In this document: piece after piece, positions 2,043 to 8,725 of the stretch
Layout of the letters: each line of letters starts with the position of its first letter
How positions within the stretch are numbered: position 1 is the first letter of the stretch
IMG/VR virus record: IMGVR_UViG_3300028430_000114
Span: 1 to 20,708 of that record
Origin: a virus
DNA length: 20,708 nucleotides
Reading direction: 5' to 3' (one strand)
Notes under the pieces: model-generated
Database searches by the model: none
Told to the model about the DNA's origin: nothing
The model's input: the letters and a program-made list of their open reading frames with translations, nothing else
Position numbers and translations under genes: made by a program

Positions 2043-2143
2043 ACTAGAATGTGGACTTGGCTACCCTTAGCGGGGGAAAAGGCGATTCGTTACCGCTCTG
2101 CCACAGTCTCTTTGTAACGATGACCGACAACGTGAGGTTCATT

Positions 2144-6753: not shown

Positions 6754-6915
6754 CTCTCGTAACCCCTTGATTTATAAGATACCTCCAAAACCCTAAGAAT
6801 CACAAAGGTTTAAATTCTTACTGGTCGGAAGTTATAGCCATGTGTCGAATCATTACTTTTTGTTCTTATGACTGGAAGTTGTTAAGGTATAGCGAAGATG
6901 CTACATCGCCCCTAT

Positions 6916-6950
6916 ATGCGAATCGTTCTCATTATCATTCTCATTTGCAT
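6916..6950. promoter_or_regulatory. Fur-box-like sequence
   Basis: The core TTCTCATTATCATTCTCATT (6926-6945), read on the minus strand, is made of the GATAAT/GAGAAT-type hexamers typical of iron-regulator Fur boxes (AATGAGAATGATAATGAGAA). It is flanked by the inverted arms ATGCGAAT and ATTTGCAT. No iron gene lies beside it in the window, so the role is uncertain. Confidence 0.4.
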
Positions 6951-6956
6951 AATGTT

Positions 6957-7040
6957 AGTTAGTGCTTACTCCCCGACCAACAAGTTAGTGAGTGCTCACT
7001 TCTATGTGTGTGAGTGCTTACTTGTAAGTGTGTACTCACT
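6957..7040. repeat. Four 14-bp operator-like repeats, AGTNAGTGCTYACT type
   Basis: AGTTAGTGCTTACT (6957-6970), AGTGAGTGCTCACT (6987-7000), TGTGAGTGCTTACT (7009-7022) and AGTGTGTACTCACT (7027-7040). Each is a full or partial dyad (AGTGAG-TG-CTCACT is perfect). Starts are 30, 22 and 18 bp apart. This looks like a multi-site operator for a dimeric regulator; no regulator gene is adjacent. Confidence 0.6.
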
Positions 7041-7413
7041 TTGATAGGGGGGAGGGGTATGCGTGGTGTTGTAAATATTTGTGAACCCTCCTCCACACTG
7101 GAAAAGCCAATCTAAGCGTACAACACTAAACAATGGCTATCTGGATTAGGGGAGAAGACGGAATAGGAAAGTCAGGATAGTATGGGCGTAGCAAGGCAGT
7201 CGTAGCACATCTCATGGTCTTGAGAGTCCCTAGACTAGGGTGGGTGTCGTATAGCGTACAGAGTTAAGTTAATCTCTGTGGGGCATCAGGTCGTATTACT
7301 GTTTCCAGTGCGTACCTCTTTATAGCCACCGCCCTTGACTTCCCTGTCGGGTCATGTTGGGCAACCGTATATCTCATGCCTTTGAGGGTGCGACTGCCAC
7401 ACCCGACATCCCT

Positions 7414-7869
7414 TTACTTGTAACGCCAATCAGTTGTATCCGTGTTGGATTTACCAATGTTACACGCCTCACACAAGACTTGCAAGTTCTCAATATCAAG
7501 TTCTAGTTTTGGATGCTTTGACCTTGGAAGAATGTGGTCAACATGGATGTACCCACTGGTTTCCCCACAAGCCTGACACTTCTTGCCAAACTTAACCAAA
7601 GCCTTGTACCTGACATCCCGCCACTCCCTAGTCTTATAGAAGTCTTTACCCATTCCAAAGAAATAGATGGGTGGTGGTTCAAACTGGACTTTCTTCTTGG
7701 GAGACTTCTTTTGCATAGCCCAAGCTATTTGAGAAGCCTTTTTGTTAATGAGTGCTTGGATGACAGGGCTGGATTCTGCTAGTTTTGCTAAAGTTTTCTT
7801 AGCTTTTGCGGCTCTGGATTTGCGTTGTTGCTTAACTGCCACCATTCCTGTCTTGCTGTAAATTGCCAT
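7414..7869 (-). CDS. HNH endonuclease
   Basis: 151 residues, ATG 7869-7867 with AAAAGG eight bases upstream. Residues 1-65 are very basic and Lys-rich (RKSRAAKAKKTLAKL, QKKSPKKK), probably for DNA contact. Residues 78-140 form the HNH zinc-finger nuclease: YKTREWRDVRYKAL, CQACG (Cys98, Cys101), HVDHILPRSKHPKL (His109, Asp111, His112), ENLQVLCEACNIGK (Asn128, Cys133, Cys136). Free-standing phage HNH proteins are homing enzymes or assist packaging; the position next to the terminase genes fits either. Expression seems tightly controlled: strong promoter at 7971-7999, an internal dyad and a leader hairpin that covers the ribosome binding site. Confidence 0.85.
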   Translation of the reverse strand: MAIYSKTGMVAVKQQRKSRAAKAKKTLAKLAESSPVIQALINKKASQIAWAMQKKSPKKKVQFEPPPIYFFGMGKDFYKTREWRDVRYKALVKFGKKCQACGETSGYIHVDHILPRSKHPKLELDIENLQVLCEACNIGKSNTDTTDWRYK

Positions 7870-7878
7870 AAAAAAAGC

Positions 7879-7963
7879 CTTTTAGGGGTGGCACAGTTGC
7901 GCCCCCCGAATGCACGGAGGCTGTACCACTTCTAAAAGACTCATAGTCTGGCGCAATCAGACT
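7879..7963 (-). ncRNA. Structured leader of the HNH mRNA
   Basis: Read on the minus strand, the leader opens with hairpin AGTCTG-ATTGCGC-CAGACT (7963-7945). It then has an 18-position stem pairing 7938-7921 with 7896-7879 (one mismatch, two G-U pairs). The loop of the first hairpin contains TTGCGC and the loop side of the second ends in GCGCAA (7902-7897), a six-base match that allows a kissing-loop or pseudoknot. An alternative hairpin, AGACT-CAT-AGTCT (7937-7949), competes with the first. The second stem covers most of the AAAAGG binding site (7883-7878). Confidence 0.55.
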
Positions 7964-7970
7964 TACCTCC

Positions 7971-7999
7971 ACTATACAAGAATCTGATTCTCGTGTAAA
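7971..7999 (-). promoter_or_regulatory. Sigma-70 promoter for HNH gene with operator-like dyad in the spacer
   Basis: Minus strand -35 TTTACA (7999-7994), 17-base spacer and -10 TATAGT (7976-7971), five of six matches in each box. The spacer holds the dyad AGAAT-CAG-ATTCT (7979-7991), placed where a bound repressor would block RNA polymerase. Transcription would start near 7964, exactly at the first leader hairpin. Confidence 0.65.
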
Positions 8000-8013
8000 G
8001 TGTGCGCTAACTT

Positions 8014-8071
8014 CCAAGACGCATGGAGATTGTCACTAGGTACTATTAGTAATAGTCACCAGCCGTGTTGG
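8014..8071. repeat. Helix-forming repeat, copy 1
   Basis: CCAAGACG (8014-8021) pairs with CGTGTTGG (8064-8071), seven of eight positions. Inside, TGGAGATTG (8024-8032) pairs with TAGTCACCA (8053-8061), with a CA/GC internal loop between the two helices. The tip forms an ACTATT-AGT-AATAGT hairpin (8042-8056) that competes with the inner helix. Copy 2 begins 98 bp later with the same arms. Confidence 0.5.
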
Positions 8072-8111
8072 TTAAGTTTACAGTTCATCAGAATAAGTAT
8101 TCAATCAACAA

Positions 8112-8201
8112 CCAAGACGCATGGGGATTGCAACGGCAGAGTTTGGTTCTGATGCATCCCGTGGGGTTAAGTGAAGTCCCCGCAGTCTCCAGCCGTGTTG
8201 G
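8112..8201. repeat. Helix-forming repeat, copy 2
   Basis: Same outer arms as copy 1: CCAAGACG (8112-8119) with CGTGTTGG (8194-8201). The inner helix is TGGGGATTG (8122-8130) with CAGTCTCCA (8183-8191), nine positions paired allowing G-U. The tip is different and longer, with CAGA-N7-TCTG (8137-8151) and GGGG-N11-CCCC (8163-8181). Between copies the inner arms vary while keeping most pairs. The 3' arm overlaps the acceptor strand of the tRNA-like element. Confidence 0.5.
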
Positions 8202-8304
8202 TGTAACTCAGTTGGTAGAGTCATGGGCAGATTTCTGTCGATGCTGTGTAGAGTTGCAACAAAGCACAGTAGGCGAGTCGCTGGTTCAAATCCAGCCACC
8301 AACA
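8197..8304 (+). tRNA. tRNA-like element with oversized anticodon/variable region
   Basis: A perfect seven-base-pair acceptor stem (GTTGGTG 8197-8203 with CACCAAC 8297-8303, discriminator A), a D arm (ACTC-AGTTGGTA-GAGT, 8206-8221) and a T arm (GCTGG-TTCAAAT-CCAGC, 8280-8296) match a tRNA. The segment between D and T arms is 58 nt instead of the usual ~23-40. It folds into GGCAG-ATTT-CTGTC (8226-8239) and TGCTGTG/CACAGTA (8242-8248 with 8265-8271), with no standard five-pair, seven-base anticodon arm. CCA is not encoded. It may be an interrupted tRNA, a tRNA mimic or a decayed gene; amino acid identity cannot be assigned. Confidence 0.55.
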
Positions 8305-8329
8305 ACCTTCTTCCCTAACTGGATAAAAG

Positions 8330-8725
8330 ATGAACGCTGTAGATGCACTTCCTGATAACCTGAAGAAATCTAAAGGTCGCCCCCGTGGTACAGGAAAGAT
8401 TACTCTCTCTAAGTACGCAGACAACCCCTCTGCACTCGTCTTACCCAAGACTGAACAACAGAAAATCAAAGAACTCAAAGACCTCCTGATAAACAGTGCT
8501 GGTTCTAATGTCGTCATCAAAGCAGTTGAGATTGCCATGAATGACGAACACCCTGCTCAAATGGCGGCACTCAAACTCTGTATGGACAGAATGCTTCCTG
8601 TCTCCCTGTTTGAAAAAGAAGGAAAACAACGCTCCGCTGTCAACATCACAATTTCAGGCATAGGTGGTGTCACTATTGGGGAAAACCCTATAGAAGCAGA
8701 AGATATAGAAAGCAAAGATGTCTGA
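8330..8725 (+). CDS. terS: Terminase small subunit
   Basis: 131 residues, called from position directly before and overlapping the large subunit by eight bases, and from its shape: a basic, Gly-Arg-rich start (KKSKGRPRGTGKITLSKYA), a helical middle with IKELKDLLINSAGSNVV and HPAQMAALKLCMDRMLP, and an acidic flexible tail (IGENPIEAEDIESKDV). Small terminases bind the packaging site near their own gene and hand DNA to the large subunit; here the site could be the folded region at 8014-8304. The start ATG 8330 has only a weak GGATAAAAG binding site. First gene of the late operon. Confidence 0.7.
   Translation: MNAVDALPDNLKKSKGRPRGTGKITLSKYADNPSALVLPKTEQQKIKELKDLLINSAGSNVVIKAVEIAMNDEHPAQMAALKLCMDRMLPVSLFEKEGKQRSAVNITISGIGGVTIGENPIEAEDIESKDV

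Follow-up and report, generated by a model that had tools for sequence, protein, structure and literature searches.

The window analysed here, virus record IMGVR_UViG_3300028430_000114 of IMG/VR (20,708 nt), carries beside terS a gene for an HNH endonuclease preceded by a promoter and a structured leader RNA; leader region and gene are read on the minus strand. A preliminary description of this DNA, made from its letters, had proposed a promoter, a hairpin, a long stem, loop complementarity, and a buried ribosome binding site (RBS) in front of the gene. All were located on the minus strand. The leader (7872-7966, minus strand) has a minimum free energy (MFE) of -43.3 kcal/mol and a z-score of -5.0, with 0 of 200 shuffled sequences folding as well. 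The features of this region are as follows.

7971..7999, minus strand: sigma70-type promoter, TTTACA-N17-TATAGT (promoter scan, 10/12 consensus)
7945..7963, minus strand: P1 hairpin, AGUCUG[AUUGCGC]CAGACU (fold and covariation)
7956-7951, minus strand: kissing strand K, UUGCGC, in the P1 loop (fold and covariation)
7875..7942, minus strand: P2/P3 as a whole, a long stem with an inner hairpin (fold; compensatory changes in every helix)
7942-7932/7885-7875, minus strand: P2 lower stem, 11 bp (fold and covariation)
7929-7921/7896-7888, minus strand: P2 upper stem, 9 bp (fold and covariation)
7920-7915/7908-7903, minus strand: P3 inner hairpin (fold and covariation)
7897..7902, minus strand: kissing strand K', GCGCAA, the 3' bulge (complementary to K)
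7878..7883, minus strand: Shine-Dalgarno (SD)-like AAAAGG, buried in lower P2 (sequence and fold)
7870..7876, minus strand: U7 tract, terminator-like, directly before the start codon (sequence)
7414..7869, minus strand: HNH endonuclease open reading frame (ORF), 151 aa, ATG at 7869 (Pfam HNH, E 8e-11; model)

A 2x2 internal loop splits P2 midway, between its lower and upper stems. The third hairpin, thought earlier to compete with the long stem, is P3; it is nested inside that stem and is no competitor.

To follow the kissing contact across phages, leaders were gathered from HNH relatives and with a scan for the stem motif. A first pattern scan requiring AGGCTTTT recovered no leaders because of that requirement. 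The main family has 54 complete leaders (45 distinct after trimming) with six K:K' versions, and in all 54 the K' hexamer is exactly complementary to positions 2-7 of the 7-nt P1 loop, a match far above chance expectation. Alignment A1 contains 38 leaders, including the divergent L048 and L050, which add two K:K' versions. Its kissing helix is paired in 228/228 cells, five of the six pairs are changed on both sides, and the G-U count is zero. Over the whole structure 99.1% of cells are paired compared to 41-51% in slid controls. RNAalifold independently gives P1, P2, and P3 from the leader alignment. Compensatory changes are present in pairs of every leader helix, including the RBS-burying stem.

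More distant leaders have the same contact. L194, held out of the leader covariance model, was recovered at 50 bits, and its loop UUAGCGCC lies opposite GGCGCUAA. The cultured Vibrio phages 2.095.A and 1.276.O share the layout, with UGGUGA:UCACCA and GUCGAGU:ACUCGAC, though these two leaders rest on architecture recognized by eye and an MFE fold, as the leader model fails to reach them. Counting divergent relatives, L194, and the Vibrio phages, there are 11 K:K' versions. The proposed loop-loop contact is therefore kept with compensatory change, the partner of the P1 loop being the 3' bulge, and it survived a check for homologues lacking complementary loops or compensatory long-stem changes. 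The alignments demonstrate that P1, P2, P3, and the kissing helix are all maintained by compensatory change. The U-tract, with at least five T, is found in 38/38 A1 rows, and in nearly all members U-tract and start codon come immediately after the stem.

The HNH protein is predicted to have two basic N-terminal helices and an HNH domain, and its nearest solved relative is HNHE of phage GVE2 (PDB 5h0m). No relatives were confirmed in prokaryote genomes. The leader had been assigned to the HNH gene, but about every second locus has this promoter, leader, and U-tract in front of an unrelated basic non-HNH ORF of 74 aa (S74; pI about 10, two predicted helices), and the HNH loci L051 (= L206) and L213 have no leader. 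Comparing the profiles of S74 and the HNH N-terminus gave a probability of only 0.7%, and homology between the two was rejected. With both ORF types the ATG is 1-2 nt past GGGCTTTTT. Long structured non-coding gaps were also seen upstream of HNH genes in Sulfitobacter phage phiGT1 (L225, 791-1432) and Xanthomonas phage Kintu (L230, 703-1192).

Related phages with near-identical flanks have the same promoter upstream of terS, with one of four or more units behind it.

7174..7967, minus strand: exchangeable unit, replaced in related phages either wholly (alleles C, D) or only beyond the leader (allele B) (blastn breakpoints)
Allele A: leader, HNH, RNA
Allele B: leader, 74-aa ORF, another RNA (e.g. 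L154)
Allele C: RNA of about 250-330 nt, no ORF (e.g. L058)
Allele D: RNA of about 500 nt without leader or ORF, three loci (e.g. L061)

The promoter is conserved up to the -10 box across alleles A, B, C, and D. In blastn comparisons, homology between A and C stops 4 nt past the -10 box and restarts at 7174, between A and D it stops at the -10 box, and between A and B it covers the leader and runs through 9 nt into the ORF. The leader model had no match in the C and D allele loci searched. As other structured RNAs stand straight after the same -10 box between near-identical flanks, the whole transcribed unit is, judged from these breakpoints, swappable. Type C RNA occurs in at least 120 stretches in viral contigs. 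It has a pseudoknot of 4-7 bp between a 5' loop and the 3' end, the strands of which vary in step in several groups, and double changes at 15/41 of its predicted pairs.

In allele A the HNH stop codon is followed by a second structured RNA.

7183..7412, minus strand: structured RNA of about 230 nt after the HNH stop codon (context and compensatory changes)
7397-7391 and 7202-7196, minus strand: pseudoknot strands of this 3' RNA (complementary)

An HNH ORF is directly upstream of the 3' RNA in 43/43 distinct contexts checked, these being exact matches to one 3' RNA motif, so that relatives without the motif escape the scan. RNAalifold performed poorly on the raw alignment, with some helices misplaced by MAFFT, and the helices were then checked strand by strand. 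In divergent members different complementary strands make up helices P0, Pa, Pc, Pd, Pe, and Pf, and most helices of this RNA have compensatory changes. One covarying pair is present in the pseudoknot (GCAGUCG:CGACUGC to GGAGUCG:CGACUCC). Lower weight was given to rows Pb, L001 Pf, L050 Pd2, L201 Pe, and L051 Pf, whose short strand strings are found more than once. By eye, the similar 5'-loop to 3'-end topology led us to suspect that type C RNA is homologous to the HNH 3' RNA. We also rejected the idea that leader bulge and 3' RNA pair with each other (CAGUCGCACCC and GGGUGCGACUG of L003 are complementary), because the 3' RNA motif is unchanged where the bulge differs.

Like IscB/HEARO with its omega RNA, the allele A unit joins an HNH domain to a structured RNA adjoining the gene. 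It differs in that the protein is only 151 aa with no RuvC domain found, the RNA is 3' of the gene, and there is no Rfam HEARO match. NCBIfam guided_IscB matches the HNH part of the protein alone (residues 84-147) at 35.8 bits, far below the family cut-off of 175 bits, and the protein is therefore not classed as IscB. The 3' RNA might still associate with the HNH protein and its basic helical arm in a ribonucleoprotein, acting as a homing nuclease that lacks RuvC, depends on or is guided by RNA, and spreads the cassette over rival RNA alleles, though we consider this quite improbable.

A known RNA family was rejected for the leader, the 3' RNA, and the other alleles, none of which has an Rfam match. 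Scanning 7860-8340, only tRNA reached the gathering score, with mir-3688 (both strands), Plastid-ycf2, and mir-228 below threshold. The scan of 6800-7430, up to E 10, gave one weak snoRNA match and none for the 3' RNA, and that of alleles B, C, and D together with the Vibrio, Xanthomonas, and Sulfitobacter loci gave tRNA and one weak small RNA (sRNA) match. No paper describing the locus was found in a literature search of open-licence papers.

Around the promoter there are further repeats.

7979-7991, minus strand: promoter spacer dyad, AGAAT-CAG-ATTCT (sequence)
7994..8013, minus strand: iteron-like stretch AAGTTAGCGCACACTTTACA over the -35 box (by-eye match, with one extra T, to repeat AAGTGAGTACACACTTACA at 7041-7023)
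6953..7041, no strand assigned: iteron-like repeats downstream of the exchangeable unit (repeat scan)

The sigma70-type scan of 7300-8400 found one promoter, that upstream of the leader, while other promoter types escape such a scan. The dyad AGAAT-N3-ATTCT noted earlier is present in the window but only partly conserved, as its 5 bp are perfect in 7/22 distinct promoter spacers and AGA-N7-TCT alone is constant. Iteron-like matches in 8010-6801 number 6 versus 0.04 expected. In another clade, GGGTAAACCC is found both inside the promoter spacer and downstream. The likeness of promoter and downstream repeats in both cases suggests possible control of the unit by a DNA-binding protein of the phage. 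Our guess is that the putative phage protein binding the nearby repeats would also control the promoter.

Several other elements were seen near the unit or elsewhere in the window. In L056 and L089 an additional gene, with a second promoter-like stretch (CTCACTTTACATCARAAAGCGAG) flanking it, separates terS from the RNA unit. At 8197-8304 (plus strand) is a tRNA-like element, scoring 44 bits with Rfam tRNA, whose acceptor, D, and T arms match and whose usual middle is replaced by about 54 nt; ARAGORN made no call for it. Positions 8014-8201 hold a pair of tandem units that have CCAAGACGCATGGRGATTG and AGTCWCCAGCCGTGTTGG as their borders but differ inside. Related phages exchange the insides of such tandem units and the tRNA-like part upstream of terS. 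An Rfam int-alpA RNA match (38.6 bits) is found at 2054-2122 (plus strand), at the start of a replication-protein ORF.

By analogy, the closest precedent for the leader is the T4-type homing endonuclease leader, where likewise a stem just ahead of a phage nuclease gene hides an SD-like sequence. In T4 such leaders also contain an internal late promoter, giving transcripts that lack the hairpin. In the window AAAAGG is inside a stable stem that covaries, consistent with the preliminary description, which had placed the leader with this kind. The part of PMC3014915 that treats such leaders gives a hairpin-hidden RBS for I-TevI, Aeh1 mobE, and T4 segB and mentions no kissing contact. The leader here differs in having a U-tract and a kissing helix that covaries, and it also serves a non-nuclease ORF. 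It may nonetheless do no more than hide the RBS in a hairpin, as in T4, with a kissing contact that just stabilizes the OFF state and neither switching nor termination taking place. The SD is sequestered in the MFE structure as expected from mobE and I-TevI, and the L194 group leaders do not have the U-tract. Left unexplained would be the U-tract in all A1 rows and the Vibrio members, in which no ORF adjoins, and we judge this simpler reading unlikely.

Like attenuators and pseudoknotted riboswitch-type leaders, the leader has a promoter, a structured RNA, and a hairpin with a U-tract before the ORF; the hairpin and U-tract expected of an intrinsic terminator are both there. Unlike in riboswitch-type leaders, the kissing strands vary in sequence and there is no Rfam match. 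With such variation no fixed ligand pocket is evident in those strands.

A terminator-like end also raises the possibility that the leader is an independent sRNA gene of about 95 nt with its own promoter and terminator, and that the ORF start is merely behind it. The compact stable fold, the good promoter, and the U-tract would suit such a gene, as would the Vibrio phages with no ORF right after the U-tract. However, the position of the start codon relative to GGGCTTTTT is shared by two unrelated ORF types, the SD-like sequence is within the stem, and no leader was found in the ORF-less alleles searched. We find an independent gene unlikely. A terminated short leader RNA could act in trans as a by-product.

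As the leader accompanies ORF-bearing units, hides an SD, and carries a U-tract, it probably gates these cassettes in cis. The locus beside terS exchanges structured RNAs, and HNH with its own 3' RNA would be one of its alleles. We infer both the gating and its direction. With the lower stem closed, the SD would be hidden, and the hairpin and U-tract would be able to terminate transcription. The kissing contact could dock P1 on upper P2 via a bend at the central internal loop, locking the closed state, or could instead hold a form with the lower stem open as the ON state. An energy of 13.5 kcal/mol was obtained for the lower stem, and of -7.7 (6 bp) to -11.0 kcal/mol (7 bp) for the kissing duplex, a similar scale; fold-back at the internal loop would let the two helices coexist, or they may compete. 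Because the stem ends in a U-tract, termination, which the preliminary description had not considered, would be no less likely to be the mode of action than SD occlusion.

Several observations weigh against such a gate. The U-tract is missing in the L194 group leaders, and the Vibrio leaders have the U-tract with no adjoining ORF, their HNH ORF being about 300 nt further downstream; neither SD occlusion nor termination alone is thus universal. Lower P2 is A-U rich, and the terminator scan, whose rule allows loops of 3-8 nt only, did not call the leader hairpin. The linker between P1 and P2 is 0-3 nt, and in a straight P2 the bulge would be about 22 layers away from P1.

The last point would also suit K and K' pairing between two RNA molecules in a dimer or ring, with P1 at the base of P2 and the bulge far up the stem, and the covariation fits intra- and intermolecular pairing alike. 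In phi29-type pRNA, intermolecular loop pairing forms a ring on the portal. Phage RNAs such as GOLLD and ROOL can use intermolecular kissing loops, as in their cages (PMC12286853). Like the RNAs at this locus, GOLLD, ROOL, and other ornate phage RNAs are large, structured, have kissing loops, and are near tRNA-like elements, whereas the RNAs here are about 230-500 nt, without Rfam match, and several alternate behind one promoter. However, an mRNA-fused leader would make an unlikely building block, and the 2x2 internal loop kept halfway along the stem could allow fold-back of the upper stem within one molecule. Pairing between molecules is accordingly very doubtful to us.

The leader is a new cis-acting leader RNA with a contact between a hairpin loop and a bulge, proven by covariation, and natural compensatory variants are at hand (e.g. 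UCUAGC:GCUAGA). It also draws attention to a place in phage genomes where four or more structured RNA units, none of them matched in Rfam, replace one another behind one promoter. This makes testable why phages swap whole structured RNAs as others swap genes, as well as the role of the RNA that accompanies the HNH nuclease.
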